Positions 15,842 through 24,467 of a stretch of DNA of 24,467 nucleotides are shown piece by piece; position 1 is the first letter of the stretch; every line of letters starts with the position of its first letter. This stretch comes from a virus. Made by a program: the position numbers and the translations under genes. The stretch is taken from IMG/VR virus record IMGVR_UViG_3300042691_039109, positions 1-24,467 of that record; one strand, 5' to 3'. A model generated the notes under the pieces. It ran no database searches. It saw only the letters and a list, made by a program, of their open reading frames with translations, and was not told the origin of the DNA.

Positions 15842-15870
15842 GCAACACCCCCCAGAACGGGAGGTGTTGC
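15842..15870 (+). terminator. Terminator-like hairpin after the virion gene pair
   Basis: GCAACACC (15842-15849) pairs with GGTGTTGC (15863-15870); after one mismatch, three further G-C pairs extend the stem to a 5-nt loop. It starts just after the stop at 15840. No T run follows on either strand, so it may block or stabilise transcript ends rather than act as a classic terminator. Confidence 0.45.
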
Positions 15871-15894
15871 ACCCTGACGGTCCTAAGCGGCATA

Positions 15895-15904
15895 AGTATT
15901 TATG
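15895..15904 (-). promoter_or_regulatory. Late-promoter-like box beyond the tmRNA terminator
   Basis: The minus strand reads CATAAATACT, matching 9 of 10 bases of the extended T4 late consensus TATAAATACT. No minus-strand gene follows, so it would make a short RNA ending at the 15842-15870 hairpin or an antisense transcript. Chance is possible. Confidence 0.25.
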
Positions 15905-15928
15905 AAAACGGAGTCCTTGCGGACTCCG
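15903..15928 (-). terminator. Intrinsic terminator of the tRNA/tmRNA cassette
   Basis: The minus strand has CGGAGTCC, a GCAA tetraloop and GGACTCCG (15928-15909), a perfect 8-bp stem, followed by TTTTC. It directly follows the tmRNA coding piece. Confidence 0.85.
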
Positions 15929-15964
15929 GGCAAATTCAGATGCGGGAAGCCACTCCCCACTGCT

Positions 15965-16003
15965 TCAAGCAGCCATTGCCAGATTGTTGGCAATTAAATT
16001 TGC
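15965..16003 (-). other. tmRNA proteolysis tag reading frame
   Basis: The resume codon GCA (16003-16001) begins a frame of twelve codons and a TGA stop (15967-15965), encoding ANLIANNLAMAA. With the alanine carried by tmRNA itself, the tag would be AANLIANNLAMAA. The -AMAA end fits the hydrophobic LAA/VAA-like degradation signal read by ClpXP-type proteases. I do not recognise the exact tag. Confidence 0.85.
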
Positions 16004-16084
16004 AACCGTTGTTTACGGAACCCGTTGCCGGTCCCGGATATCTCCCCTTTGCCTACTCAACGCCAGTCGAAGCCTATCGGTCCC

Positions 16085-16090
16085 GTCGAA
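16085..16090 (-). other. Intervening segment of the permuted tmRNA
   Basis: Six bases (TTCGAC on the minus strand) separate the discriminator of the acceptor strand from the first base of the 5' acceptor strand. They would be removed when the precursor is cut into two pieces. This is very short, and repeats the TTCGAC of the D-loop, possibly by chance. Confidence 0.6.
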
Positions 16091-16155
16091 TGGAACCGGG
16101 GGGATTCGAACCCCCGTGCTGTTCGCCTTTCTTCTCCGGATCAACAATATCAATT

Positions 16156-16368
16156 TTATGTAGGTTCAAATCTATCTTTTGACAGACCTAATGTTCCACT
16201 TGCATGAATTTTAATTTGGTCTGTTCTATAATGGCGAATTGTTCCACCATCGCATAACATCACACACCAAATATCATTTTCGAAAGTACCGCTGTCCGAA
16301 GCGTAAAGAGCGTAACCTTCTTTGCTTCCCTCAACTACAACTGGTATTGGTTTTTTAAATTCCATCAT
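16156..16368 (-). CDS. Small conserved-looking phage protein inside the tRNA cluster
   Basis: The product has 70 residues: a start MMEFKKPIPVVVEG, a core GTFENDIWCVMLCDGG and a TIRHYRTDQIKIHASGTLGL end. The strand-rich pattern resembles short proteins of unknown role that I have seen in T4-like marine phages, but I name no function. The first of two adjacent ATGs (16368) has an AAGGAG six bases upstream; these bases are the 3' end of the tRNA-Asn acceptor stem (16375-16380), so translation and tRNA maturation compete for the same RNA. The tmRNA acceptor piece starts just after its stop. It has no membrane segment. Confidence 0.7.
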   Translation of the reverse strand: MMEFKKPIPVVVEGSKEGYALYASDSGTFENDIWCVMLCDGGTIRHYRTDQIKIHASGTLGLSKDRFEPT

Positions 16369-16374
16369 ATACAA

Positions 16375-16447
16375 CTCCTTCAGTTGGGCTCGAACCAACG
16401 ACATTCGAGTTAACAGCTCGACGCTCTACCAACTGAGCTATGAAGGA
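16375..16447 (-). tRNA. tRNA-Asn (GTT)
   Basis: The minus strand gives a 73-nt cloverleaf: acceptor TCCTTCA/TGAAGGA (7 of 7 pairs), D arm with GCTC...GAGC, anticodon loop CTGTTAA (anticodon GTT), T arm GTTGG-TTCGAGC-CCAAC, discriminator G. CCA is not encoded. Its 3' end doubles as a ribosome binding site for the next gene. Confidence 0.93.
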
Positions 16448-16451
16448 TCAA

Positions 16452-16525
16452 TACTCCCACGGGGACTCGAACCCCGAGTCACCGCCTTGAAAGGGCGGGG
16501 ATTTAGCCGGTTAATCTATGGGAGC
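16452..16525 (-). tRNA. tRNA-Glu (TTC)
   Basis: The minus strand gives a 74-nt cloverleaf: acceptor GCTCCCA/TGGGAGT (first pair G-U), anticodon stem CCGCC/GGCGG with loop CTTTCAA (anticodon TTC), T arm CGGGG-TTCGAGT-CCCCG, discriminator A. The CCGCCCTTTCA pattern is typical of bacterial tRNA-Glu. CCA is not encoded. Confidence 0.92.
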
Positions 16526-16870: not shown

Positions 16871-16881
16871 CTCCGAACAAG

Positions 16882-16954
16882 AGCGGGCGAAGGGGTTCGA
16901 ACCCTCGACATATAGCTTGGAAGGCTATCACTCTACCAACTGAGTTACGCCCGC
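16882..16954 (-). tRNA. tRNA-Gly (TCC)
   Basis: The minus strand gives a 73-nt cloverleaf: acceptor GCGGGCG/CGCCCGC (7 of 7), D arm ACTC...GAGT, anticodon loop CTTCCAA (anticodon TCC), T arm GAGGG-TTCGAAC-CCCTT, discriminator T. CCA is not encoded. It reads GGA, a frequent glycine codon in the AT-rich genes here. Confidence 0.93.
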
Positions 16955-16957
16955 AAA

Positions 16958-17030
16958 CATTCCCGACAGGACTCGAACCTGTAACCAACGGTTTAGAAAA
17001 CCGTTGCTCTATCCATTGAGCTACGGGAAT
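16958..17030 (-). tRNA. tRNA-Arg (TCT)
   Basis: The minus strand gives a 73-nt cloverleaf: acceptor ATTCCCG/CGGGAAT (7 of 7), D arm GCTC...GAGC, anticodon stem ACGGT/ACCGT with loop TTTCTAA (anticodon TCT), T arm ACAGG-TTCGAGT-CCTGT, discriminator G. CCA is not encoded. It reads AGA, the main arginine codon of the phage and often rare in hosts. It begins a few bases after the promoter. Confidence 0.93.
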
Positions 17031-17039
17031 TCTAGGTAC

Positions 17040-17067
17040 ATTGTACCACAGATCTCAAGCAAGTCAA
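17040..17067 (-). promoter_or_regulatory. Sigma70-type promoter of the tRNA/tmRNA cassette
   Basis: The minus strand reads TTGACT (17067-17062), 16 bp, then TACAAT (17045-17040) preceded by TGG (extended -10). The predicted start is within a few bases of the tRNA-Arg 5' end. Confidence 0.78.
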
Positions 17068-18115: not shown

Positions 18116-18144
18116 ATTGTAACATATCAGATCAACTCAGTCAA
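18116..18144 (-). promoter_or_regulatory. Sigma70-type promoter of the OM-protein gene
   Basis: The minus strand reads TTGACT (18144-18139), 17 bp, then TACAAT (18121-18116) preceded by TGT (extended -10). The -35 overlaps the stop codon of the upstream dockerin gene. Confidence 0.8.
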
Positions 18145-20534
18145 GGGTTGTCTTTCGTTTTTCCAAACTGGCTTAAGAATATAGCCATGTCTTTTCCATC
18201 AACAATACCATCCCCATCAAGATCATAATCTGGATCTTGAGTTCCCCATTTTGCTAGTAACATTCCTTGGTCAATAGCATCTACAACACCATCATTGTTA
18301 AAATCACCAATTAATTTATTTTCAAATGTACTAACATCTACGCCACACCATGTTTTTATTCCCGGAATAGTTGACCAATTTATTGTCTTTGCAATCTCGA
18401 CTGCGGTATTCGGTCTATAATACCATTTGTTCAAAATTGCAGTATCCCATGGGTAACAACCCATGTAATGATGATCTGTGCTGTAACTTACCCATTCATA
18501 AGGACTGCTGGTCAATATTTTTTGAATATATTCATGTGTAAGAACTGCGTCTTTATCCAAATCAGGATTCACTCCTGTTTTCTTTTCTATGTAATTCATC
18601 CATCCGTATAATTTAACAACAAGGACTTCACAAATCCCTGCGTAGGGGCTTGTGGGAGAAAGATTTGCATCTGCCATTCCATTAAAACGAGTTGGTCCAA
18701 TTAGATAGAACACTTCTCCGACATTTTTATCAATGCAAGTTATCATTTGAAATTTTGATGTTTCATCTGGTTGACCATTTTGCCAAGGTCTATCTAAAAT
18801 AAAACCATAACCGCTTATGTTTTGAGAAGTTTCTGGTTTGGCATTTCTGAAATCACCCCACGATTTTATAACTCTGTAAAGAGTATCACCAGCACCCGGA
18901 CCCGATATTACTTTAATATAGGAATACCAGAAAGTTGACGATTTTCCGTCGTGTGACGCTGCCCAGCCTTTATTTAAATCTGCAGGAACTGTATTCCATT
19001 GAATTTTTGCAAATCTTCCTGTAAAAGTTGATGTTTCCCTATAAACATGAATCAACCCATATTTTGTATTTTCATTAGTTTCTTCTAAATTTGCACCAAC
19101 AGCAGAAAATATTCTTCTATGTGTTTTACCAAGAGTTCTATAGTCAAGATCATTTCCAACTTGATCAACAACTTTAAAATAACACAATGCCTCTAGTGCT
19201 GTTTGAAGTGCATGCCACCTTTTCTTTGCTGTTAAACTTGTGTGTGGATCTCCATATATCATAATCATTTTTTCATTTGATTGTGATTCTGATTCTTCCC
19301 CATCTTCACTTTCAACACCGGCACCCCTGTCCGACAATAATCCATTTGATCTTGCTGTATCTGAAATCATGGTAGTTTCTGGCATACGCATAGCAAGTTC
19401 ATTTAAGAAATATCCAGATATGATAGACCAAGGACGAGCTGTACATGGTTTTTGACCGGCTCCACTCGAAGTGGAAGTATATGTCTTAATAGACCCAAAT
19501 GCATCAATTCCCCATTGAATTACTGTCTTTAAATTTTCAAATCTTTGTGATTGTAAAACATTTTTTGAATACAATGTTTGTAAACGATTCATCAAAGGTC
19601 CTTGATAATACGCTCCATATGCAGATATTTTTCCGTCTATACTTGCGGAATAAAGCGGCATCGCTTGAGAATAATCAGTACCACCACCAAATGCAAACCC
19701 ATAGCAAAATGTTTTAAATGATGGATCGTTTGCATATGTTGGCATTTTAAATTGTGGTGCGGGATTATCAACAAGTTCAGAATCACCCGGTAATTTACCA
19801 TTTAGTTTTGAAACGGCATGTAAAGGTCTGTTTTTTCTATCCTCTTCTGGCCAAAGAACAGGAGGTCTAAATGAAACTTCAGTAGGGTGATTCTCCAAGA
19901 CAAATAAAGTACCATAAGACATTGAACATGATCTGCTCATAATTCTTTGATAAGGATATCCGCTTGCATTTGAAATGTTCCATTTGTATGGACAATTGAT
20001 ATCAAAATTAGACCATTGAACTACAAGCACATCACCAAATTGTACTTCTATTCCACCATTTTCCAGTTGTTGTTTTGTATCTAAAAATTTATTAAGGTCA
20101 AATGCTTTATATGATGAATTTAAATTTGTTGGTAAAGGTACTTTTGTCCATTTCCCATTTACGGGTTGTGTTTTATACGGTGTCCAACCTTTGTTTGATG
20201 TTCCGAATGATCTAGAATCAAATGCATTTCCTTTACTTCTAGGAGTACCATCTGGTCCATAATCATGCATGCCTCTTGGATTTTTTACCAAACCGTTAAT
20301 GTATATTTCACCTTTAAATCCTTCTTTTCCTGCCCAACCCAATTCCAAATCAGCAATAATTCTGTTTGGTTTTTCAACACCAAATTCGGATTCCATTTCC
20401 ATATCAATAAGCTTTAGTCCCGGCTTATTGATAATATATGGACTTCCGTCCCAGAAAGTACCAGTTTCAACGTCTTGATTAAAAGTCCATTTATACTTTA
20501 CTTTGTGAGCTTCGTGAATTATCTGGTTTGGCAT
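18141..20534 (-). CDS. Large protein of unknown function with C-terminal dockerin
   Basis: The product has 797 residues. The C-terminal ~55 (742-797) form a type I dockerin: two calcium loops (DFNNDGVVDAID at 744-755 and DLDGDGIVDGKD at 771-782), each followed by a helix (QGMLLAKWG, MAIFLSQFG). The WG-ended, GDGxVD style is common in planctomycete proteins. The first ~740 residues are not recognised: Trp- and Tyr-rich, mixed alpha/beta, with an acidic Ser/Glu stretch near 410-425 (ESEDGEESESQ) and no signal peptide or membrane segment. It overlaps the 49-residue gene by 44 bp and sits in an operon with a second dockerin protein. It could be a virion surface protein, host-binding factor or enzyme; nothing decides this. 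Confidence 0.65.
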   Translation of the reverse strand: MPNQIIHEAHKVKYKWTFNQDVETGTFWDGSPYIINKPGLKLIDMEMESEFGVEKPNRIIADLELGWAGKEGFKGEIYINGLVKNPRGMHDYGPDGTPRSKGNAFDSRSFGTSNKGWTPYKTQPVNGKWTKVPLPTNLNSSYKAFDLNKFLDTKQQLENGGIEVQFGDVLVVQWSNFDINCPYKWNISNASGYPYQRIMSRSCSMSYGTLFVLENHPTEVSFRPPVLWPEEDRKNRPLHAVSKLNGKLPGDSELVDNPAPQFKMPTYANDPSFKTFCYGFAFGGGTDYSQAMPLYSASIDGKISAYGAYYQGPLMNRLQTLYSKNVLQSQRFENLKTVIQWGIDAFGSIKTYTSTSSGAGQKPCTARPWSIISGYFLNELAMRMPETTMISDTARSNGLLSDRGAGVESEDGEESESQSNEKMIMIYGDPHTSLTAKKRWHALQTALEALCYFKVVDQVGNDLDYRTLGKTHRRIFSAVGANLEETNENTKYGLIHVYRETSTFTGRFAKIQWNTVPADLNKGWAASHDGKSSTFWYSYIKVISGPGAGDTLYRVIKSWGDFRNAKPETSQNISGYGFILDRPWQNGQPDETSKFQMITCIDKNVGEVFYLIGPTRFNGMADANLSPTSPYAGICEVLVVKLYGWMNYIEKKTGVNPDLDKDAVLTHEYIQKILTSSPYEWVSYSTDHHYMGCYPWDTAILNKWYYRPNTAVEIAKTINWSTIPGIKTWCGVDVSTFENKLIGDFNNDGVVDAIDQGMLLAKWGTQDPDYDLDGDGIVDGKDMAIFLSQFGKTKDNP

Positions 20535-20644: not shown

Positions 20645-21718
20645 TCACCTTGGTTTAATAATATTAATTGGTGGTATTATTGGTGGTTGTGTGTTTGGAT
20701 TATATACAGAGTTTTCTATTGTATATTCTCCCCAATTAGCCATCAAAATAGACATGTCTTCTGCATCGACAAATCCATCACCATTTAAATCATATTCTTT
20801 ATTATTAGTTCCCCATGCTGACAATAATTTAGTTTGATCCATTGCATCAACTTTTCCGTCTTGATTAAAGTCCCCCGGTCTTACAGATATTTTTACATAA
20901 TCTAAAGAATATTGATTTCCTATTTCTTGCTTCAAAATATCGATTAATGTGGGGGGTATTATATGCCCACCAAATGCCAATCCTACTAAGATTGTATTTC
21001 CGGATTTATCTAACACAAATGTAGGAGAACCACTGTCCCCGCCAAACACATTTGGAACTTGAATTGGTCCGGTTGATCCGTTGAATGGTATTCCTTCATT
21101 ATAACCCATTCCGTCGTCTGTGTAAGGCTTCGACATCCAAGTCGTCGGTTCTGTATTGACTGTGCCGTCCTTTGTTCTACTTTCTTTAAGCCGAGTCCTG
21201 TATATTCTGCATTGACCATCTTGCATCCACATCTCTGTTTCTCTTGGAATATATCTTACATCGGCTATTTTTGAATATATTTTAATATCGTCTACTGGAA
21301 ATTCTTGTTCGAATTCGACTAACCTTAAATCATAAGGATTTAATTGTTTTGTTGTTTTTACTTTTCTGGTATAAGTTTGTTGACTTTTGCCCAACCATTT
21401 AAGATCGTGAACCTGTGATGGTATAGCAGCATAATAATGCTGACAGATCAACGCATGTTTTGGTGTTATTAAGACTGCTGCAAAATAACCGTTATTCCAA
21501 TAATTGATGTTTCCCCAATCGGATTGGACATATGCAGATCTATTATTGAACCTTTGATTTTTAGCAGCACAACCAGAAAAGTCAACATTATAGTATGCTG
21601 CTGGACAGCGAGAATTATACTCAATAGGAATACCATCATTTTTTGGGTCTAATGAAACCGGGGGTGAAAATAAATGAAGATCGTGATATTCTCTATTATA
21701 GTTTTTAATTACTGCCAT
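20645..21718 (-). CDS. Trypsin-like serine protease with C-terminal dockerin
   Basis: The product has 357 residues. The catalytic triad of a chymotrypsin-fold (S1/S6-type) protease can be read as H94 (ALICQHYY), D130 (NPYDLRLVEF) and S229 in GGDSGSP. The calcium loops DFNQDGKVDAMD (283-294) and DLNGDGFVDAED (310-321) form a type I dockerin, followed by a Pro-rich tail (TQPPIIPPINI). No signal peptide is seen, so it may be a virion part or act in the cytoplasm or after lysis. A box TATAAATT (21739-21746) and an AAGGAT site precede it. Dockerins bind cohesins; none is visible in this window. Protease and dockerin calls are firm; the role (host surface digestion, protein maturation) is inference. 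Confidence 0.82.
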   Translation of the reverse strand: MAVIKNYNREYHDLHLFSPPVSLDPKNDGIPIEYNSRCPAAYYNVDFSGCAAKNQRFNNRSAYVQSDWGNINYWNNGYFAAVLITPKHALICQHYYAAIPSQVHDLKWLGKSQQTYTRKVKTTKQLNPYDLRLVEFEQEFPVDDIKIYSKIADVRYIPRETEMWMQDGQCRIYRTRLKESRTKDGTVNTEPTTWMSKPYTDDGMGYNEGIPFNGSTGPIQVPNVFGGDSGSPTFVLDKSGNTILVGLAFGGHIIPPTLIDILKQEIGNQYSLDYVKISVRPGDFNQDGKVDAMDQTKLLSAWGTNNKEYDLNGDGFVDAEDMSILMANWGEYTIENSVYNPNTQPPIIPPINIIKPR

Positions 21719-24054: not shown

Positions 24055-24467
24055 TTAAACTAATACTTTGCTGCAATAATCATACATTGCAATCGAACTG
24101 GCACACCCAACATTCAGACTACGCACAGAGCCGTATTGGGTAATATAAAGTTTCACATCACACAGTTCCAGAACATCTTCTGGGATGCCTACCTGCTCCT
24201 GTCCAAATACCATCACCACATGTTCGTGGGCTGGCCAGTCATAATGTTCAATTGGCTGTGCGTCAGAAACATTGTCGATTCCGACAACGAACTTTCGTGA
24301 CAGGAACTTTCGCACATCGTCAAATGTCGGTAGGTATCGGAACCGAGTGTAGTTATGAGTTCCAACCGTACCCCTGCGATCAAATCGCTTGGATCCATAT
24401 AGTAGTACCTCTGAAGCGAGGAAAGCATTGGAATTCCGAACAACGGTGGCAATATTAAAATCGTTGT
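24055..24467 (-). CDS. SpoU/TrmH-family RNA 2'-O-methyltransferase (5' part outside window)
   Basis: The frame is open to the window edge, giving the last ~136 residues. All family motifs are present: motif 1 near the visible start (NIATVVRNSNAF with GASEV-like FLASEVLLYG), motif 2 VMVFGQEQVGIPEDVLELCD and motif 3 YITQYGSVRSLNVGCASSIAMYDY, which form the knotted SAM-binding site. Members methylate ribose 2'-OH in tRNA or rRNA. Only a few residues before motif 1 are likely missing, so it is a short TrmH/TrmL-like enzyme. A phage copy near tRNA and tmRNA genes suggests tRNA modification, by inference. It converges on the HicA-like gene with a 3-bp gap. Its base composition is GC-richer than that of the virion genes, which may mean a host origin. 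Confidence 0.85.
   Translation of the reverse strand, partial: NDFNIATVVRNSNAFLASEVLLYGSKRFDRRGTVGTHNYTRFRYLPTFDDVRKFLSRKFVVGIDNVSDAQPIEHYDWPAHEHVVMVFGQEQVGIPEDVLELCDVKLYITQYGSVRSLNVGCASSIAMYDYCSKVLV

Follow-up and report, generated by a model that had tools for sequence, protein, structure and literature searches.

This locus raises the question of whether a phage carries its own ribosome-rescue RNA in two pieces and, if so, with which tag and to what effect. The window, i.e., the whole stretch of DNA analyzed here, is the IMG/VR virus record IMGVR_UViG_3300042691_039109 of 24,467 bases. An initial annotation had read on it a circularly permuted tmRNA brought by the phage itself. Results of Rfam and ARAGORN searches, the identity elements of the tRNA-like domain, the pseudoknot PK1, a conserved tag and conservation in relatives all uphold that reading, and in our view this T4-like phage very probably carries a tmRNA (ssrA) that functions in two pieces.

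The source contig and its permuted tmRNA gene

Comparison of the window proteins with PHROGs revealed baseplate wedge and hub proteins, a head closure protein, a gp32-type ssDNA-binding protein and a late-promoter regulator; PHROGs 219, 261, 232, 150, 218, 224 and 254 place the window among the T4-like myoviruses. Its gp32 was about 56-63% identical to gp32 of Synechococcus, Prochlorococcus and Pelagibacter phages (those looked up belong to the Kyanoviridae), with 58% identity to that of Pelagibacter phage Mosig, and gp6 showed less than 30% identity among the best matches listed. A nucleotide search of named phages gave short matches only (30-42 bases), and tblastn of the 1679-aa tail protein against named phages gave no match. 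Judged by sequence similarity, the window is a distinct branch of the T4-like myoviruses. Two of its proteins, both on the minus strand, presented dockerin-like C-terminal repeats (PF00404), that at 20645-21718 scoring above the cut-off and that at 18141-20534 just below it; a SpoU-type RNA methylase domain (PF00588) at 24055-24465, minus strand, was truncated by the contig end.

ARAGORN called a permuted tmRNA (tmRNA*) at 15874-16183, minus strand, and the Rfam model tmRNA_permuted (RF04321) matched from 16151 to 15965 on the same strand over its full length (1-213) with 68.7 bits (E 1.6e-11; cut-off, 47 bits), confirming a circularly permuted tmRNA at about 16183-15903. The covariance-model check that had been suggested for the locus was otherwise negative: the alpha model (RF01849) gave no match at E 0.001, and the beta_tmRNA model (RF01850, aligned over the full length, 15903-16183) and the cyano model (RF01851) scored 41.7 and 34.9 bits, below their cut-offs of 84 and 70. 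Since none of these three models matched above its cut-off, the coding domain is diverged or reduced. Both halves of the molecule lie on one strand, the 3' half (3' strand of P2, T arm and 3' acceptor strand) preceding the 5' half. The elements of the gene, in the order of transcription and with the evidence for each in brackets, are listed below; L121 is a relative bearing a similar tmRNA.

15903-16183, minus strand: whole permuted tmRNA gene, acceptor piece first, coding piece second (ARAGORN, RF04321, RF01850)
16146-16151, minus strand: P2 3' strand GATATT, outer end, in the acceptor piece, pairing with 16037-16042 (Rfam alignment; two-piece cofold of the tRNA-like domain, TLD, with P2)
16099-16115, minus strand: T arm GGGGG-TTCGAAT-CCCCC with a 5-bp stem (sequence, RF04321 alignment)
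16092-16098, minus strand: acceptor 3' strand CGGTTCC, with U70 paired to G3 (7/7 pairing)
16091, minus strand: discriminator A73, CCA not encoded (sequence)
16085-16090, minus strand: intervening segment TTCGAC of 6 nt, predicted to be cut out of the precursor (sequence)
16078-16084, minus strand: acceptor 5' strand GGGACCG, G1-G7 (RF04321 alignment, pairing)
16066-16074, minus strand: D-loop signature GGCTTCGAC (sequence, RF04321 alignment)
16037-16042, minus strand: P2 5' strand GATATC, in the coding piece (Rfam alignment, cofold)
16002-16036, minus strand: pseudoknot PK1 (shuffles; helices kept in L121 and L200)
16036-16030 with 16022-16016, minus strand: PK1 helix S1, CGGGACC/GGTTCCG, 7 bp
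16028-16024 with 16006-16002, minus strand: PK1 helix S2, GCAAC/GTTGC, 5 bp
15975-15994, minus strand: hairpin ATTGCCA/TGGCAAT around the resume codon and first tag codons (folds; in L121 stem unchanged, loop changed)
15965-15991, minus strand: tag GCC AAC AAT CTG GCA ATG GCT GCT TGA, ANNLAMAA-stop (ARAGORN, Rfam alignment, L121)
15960-15972, minus strand: stop-codon hairpin CTGCT-TGA-AGCAG, P5-like (fold; unchanged in L121)
15909-15928, minus strand: intrinsic terminator CGGAGTCC-GCAA-GGACTCCG TTTT (sequence; stem conserved in L121)

The order noticed at first, with the T arm and CGGTTCC lying 5' of GGGACCG and GGCTTCGAC, was borne out on the minus strand, as were the terminator after the gene and the pairing of the acceptor strands at 7/7 positions across the 6-nt spacer. 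One of these pairs is G3·U70 and the discriminator is A73, so that together with the T arm an alanine-type tRNA-like domain is present. A G·U third acceptor pair is a classical alanine identity element. The initial annotation had considered the spacer unusually short, but its length is ordinary: in a set of 53 distinct, well-formed permuted tmRNAs of viruses, each with a fully paired (7/7) acceptor stem and G3·U70, the intervening segment ranged from 4 to 147 nt and was ≤6 nt in 19 and ≤9 nt in 33, although the search pattern favored short spacers and the 19/53 proportion is no estimate.

P2 was weakly predicted, as the cofold of the TLD with P2 gave the GATATT/GATATC end for the window and not for L121 (one of two cofolds), and the inner part of P2 in the window contains non-standard pairs. 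A pseudoknot compatible with the permuted order was found in PK1, which is of the H type and ends 10 nt before the resume codon GCC. L121 retains both of its helices, and so does L200, in which S1 pairs despite a different sequence; the score of PK1 was equaled by 2 of 500 simple shuffles for the window, by none for L121 and by 16 for L200.

The tag and its distribution

ARAGORN and the Rfam alignment both start the tag at GCC (15991), and the resumed peptide, including the charged alanine, reads A-ANNLAMAA. The frame is also open in L121 (GCC AAC CAA CTG GCA ATG GCT GCT TGA, ANQLAMAA) and is conserved among phages as ANNLAMAA, ANQLAMAA and ANNFALAA, with an Ala resume codon, a hydrophobic end and a stop. 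The complete tag frame proposed at first was a different one, of 12 residues (ANLIANNLAMAA), beginning at GCA (16003). We rejected it on two grounds: in L121, whose tmRNA is 90% identical, one extra A stands between this GCA and the GCC (GTTGCAAAATTTAATTGCC vs GTTGCAAATTTAATTGCC), so that the ANLIANNLAMAA / ANLI frame is broken and not conserved, and the GCA itself (16003-16001) overlaps the 3' strand of the second PK1 helix.

In ANN(L/F)A-type tmRNAs, both of phages and of Aminicenantes, the resume codon lies within a hairpin made by tag codons 1 to 5. Codons 1 and 4 form a standard pair through their third bases in 34 of 37 tag haplotypes, of five kinds (C-G, T-A, A-T, G-C and G-T), these haplotypes having been gathered from phages and bacteria by a tag pattern that fixes most of the other stem bases, and many of them being related. 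The pairing of the tag hairpin is a lead rather than proof.

A tag-pattern search found the identical tag ANNLAMAA in 17 other viral contigs, whose permuted tmRNAs are quite unlike that of the window (T loop TGCAATA); the search of viral contigs gave 60 matches, screened mostly by an upstream TTCGA, and many of these are probably ordinary protein-coding sequence. In one of the 17 contigs a neighbor gene resembles by eye the rubrerythrin annotated in Mosig. Among 84,980 prokaryote species, the pattern A-N-[NQHK]-[LF]-A-M-A-A within 45-75 nt of TTCGAC matched zero genomes, a scan that would miss hosts with other tags and does not indicate the host's own tag. Because it is identical in 17 viral contigs and had no match in the prokaryote scan, ANNLAMAA looks phage-associated on sequence grounds. 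We also tried to assign a host through the tag and discarded this route, as the exact pattern had no match and a looser one matched 25 genomes, mainly Aminicenantes/Acidobacteriota, in none of which inspection showed a permuted tmRNA gene. The suggestion that the tag is tuned to its host consequently found no support, the exact tag class occurring in a tmRNA context in none of the scanned species. One could go further and propose that T4-like phages share a phage-specific tmRNA type, with an 8-residue tag ANN(L/F)A(M/I/L)AA that differs from host tags and whose first codons pair in a hairpin (GCNAA...TTNGC) at the resume codon, and that the phage would thereby override host ssrA tagging during infection; we hold this idea to be rather doubtful.

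The tRNA-tmRNA unit in the window and its relatives

The tmRNA gene and its terminator stand at the end of a unit that begins with four tRNA genes:

17040-17067, minus strand: sigma-70-like promoter from which the unit starts, TTGACT-16-TACAAT, its -10 preceded by TG (sequence)
16958-17030, minus strand: tRNA-Arg(TCT) (ARAGORN, Rfam)
16881-16954, minus strand: tRNA-Gly(TCC) (ARAGORN, Rfam)
16452-16525, minus strand: tRNA-Glu(TTC) (ARAGORN, Rfam)
16375-16447, minus strand: tRNA-Asn(GTT), whose end borders the site found empty in relatives (ARAGORN, comparison)
16156-16404, minus strand: small ORF of up to 82 aa, inserted with the tmRNA (translation)

The promoter lies about 10 bases upstream of tRNA-Arg, and in L121, L124 and L125 the first tRNA is immediately preceded by a promoter matching the consensus at 11-12 of 12 bases. 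No family match was found for the small ORF, for which an ATG after AAGGAG gives a shorter product; L121 has a different ORF in its position, and a look-alike (FENDI.CV...GG.IRH.R.DQI) was seen, by eye only, elsewhere in L124, before the tRNA promoter. The T4 late promoter TATAAATA showed no excess in the window. At 15855-15905 of the window, and in L124, L125, L127 and L121, a conserved ATGCCGCTTAGGACCGTCAGGGTGC is followed by a variable hairpin; in the relatives TATAAATA, of the T4 late type, precedes it, with a copy at their empty site. This stretch and its hairpin may represent a small late RNA or a terminator acting in both directions.

Three contigs from other datasets (L040, L121 and L122) carry the tmRNA with 90% identity over 326 bases, and therefore it is neither a chance pattern nor an assembly artefact. 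Above the RF04321 cut-off there were 4 of the 80 contigs of gp32 relatives, many of them fragments, namely these three near-identical ones and G010, in whose tmRNA a long helix closes a far longer intervening segment and the tag, as read from the sequence, is ANNFALAA. A near-exact pattern for close relatives of the tmRNA, GGNACCGNTAGGCTTCGACTGG, gave no matches. The alignment of L124 to the window showed 78% identity over 3.8 kb up to 15903 and resumed at 16375, the end of tRNA-Asn; L124 thus lacks the 471 bases holding the tmRNA and the small ORF, which L125 and L127 lack as well. L121, with the tmRNA, is less similar to the window in the flanking genes (67-71%) than L124, without it. Since the closer relative in the neighboring genes has no tmRNA there, its presence is patchy and the gene comes and goes as a cassette. 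Judged by these alignments, the patchy presence is one of gain, loss or exchange, and the gene occupies a mobile slot that follows the last tRNA gene of the array; as L124, L125 and L127 do without it at the corresponding place, it is dispensable.

Such patchiness would also be seen if the gene were a decaying, captured ssrA fragment without function, left for example when an element integrated at a host ssrA excised imprecisely, and genomic islands do often integrate at the tmRNA gene (PMC11915505). However, both gene halves are complete and the tag is intact, the annotated proteins of the T4-like contig yielded no integrase, and between the window and L121 the tmRNA is 90% identical against 67-71% in the flanking genes, with the TLD, the PK1 stems and the stop hairpin nearly unchanged and the helices, promoter and terminator conserved. 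This conservation disfavors decay, which we regard as very unlikely.

Proposed working and comparison with known systems

As a functional tmRNA, the gene would be transcribed from the sigma-70-type promoter together with tRNA-Arg, -Gly, -Glu and -Asn as one transcript, probably early in infection. Host tRNA-processing enzymes would remove the 6-nt intervening segment, a nucleotidyltransferase would add CCA, and the acceptor stem and P2 would keep the acceptor and coding pieces joined. Charging would be carried out by the host alanyl-tRNA synthetase (AlaRS) through G3·U70, and host SmpB would bring the molecule to stalled ribosomes. The use of host SmpB is presumed because no SmpB gene was found in 24 viral records (the window and 23 tmRNA-bearing or related ones, including Mosig and Melnitz), most of which may be fragments. 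Translation would then resume at the GCC behind PK1 and append A-ANNLAMAA, a proteolysis tag ending in Ala-Ala, presumably to the benefit of the phage.

Alternatively, the main role of the RNA might be to interfere with host trans-translation, as a decoy or inhibitor that engages SmpB or AlaRS, rather than to tag. A related T4-like phage, G022, has a standard-order, tag-less tmRNA-like RNA of ~80 nt (locus L151, G022:C1:8858-8940; RF00023, 62.1 bits), and strong inhibition of tmRNA has been reported for a molecule resembling the TLD-only RNA of mycobacteriophage DS6A (PMC4131195). The tag frame, the stop hairpin and PK1, which a decoy does not need, are nevertheless conserved here, and we find this explanation even less likely than decay. 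A tagging RNA accordingly remains the preferred reading of the window gene. Tag-less RNAs form a large set of their own in viral contigs (L299-L418 and L151), in standard order, ~80 nt long, with a tRNA-like domain and a closed P2-like hairpin. A pattern search gave at least 93 distinct ones with 7/7 acceptor and 5/5 T-stem pairs among the matches listed, all 93 of which had G3·U70 and A73 although the pattern demanded neither, and RF00023 was above cut-off in six of the seven loci checked, that of G022 included. By analogy with the DS6A RNA they are possible SmpB or AlaRS decoys. In the literature consulted, DS6A provides the only TLD-only phage tmRNA (PMC4131195) and so the only precedent for this set, which offers a testable point; a 2025 database holds nine standard tmRNAs without a tag frame (PMC11915505).

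The window tmRNA shares with the bacterial RF04321 tmRNAs (Alphaproteobacteria, some Betaproteobacteria and Cyanobacteria) the gene order, the G3·U70 acceptor, the T arm, GGNTTCGAC, PK1 and an Ala-Ala-ending tag behind PK1, and differs from them in being a phage gene with an 8-codon tag and no alpha, beta or cyano submodel above cut-off. The DS6A RNA is likewise a phage-borne tRNA-like domain, of the same kind as that of G022, but has no tag and little beyond the TLD, whereas in the window RNA the coding domain is complete. Cyanophage-type permuted tmRNAs in IMG/VR (e.g., L002 and L041) resemble it in their intervening segments of 4-9 nt and adjoining tRNA genes, and differ in their longer ANNIVAFSR-type tags and RF01851 scores of 128-133 bits (34.9 in the window). 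Methylophilales phage Melnitz and Pelagibacter phage Mosig, T4-like marine phages of the Kyanoviridae (PMC9004378), carry a permuted tmRNA as the window does; that of Melnitz has been described in detail and is also placed after an early promoter (PMC9004378). Their tags are ANDNYVPVDYALAA and GEDNFALAA and their intervening segments long, in contrast with ANNLAMAA and 6 nt here, and Melnitz has a glutamine riboswitch at the tmRNA locus (PMC9004378), whereas no Rfam riboswitch family reached its cut-off in the window. As of 2021, 133 distinct tmRNAs were counted in phages, and 53 of them had been called two-piece, the majority from phages of marine or aquatic origin (PMC9004378); the window gene is hence a well-supported further example and not a new kind. 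Among phages carrying their own ribosome-rescue RNA it is one more well-bounded case, in which a short tag is combined with a clear empty-site comparison, and that this short tag is common to dissimilar phage tmRNAs and occurs in none of the scanned host genomes is a first point open to testing.
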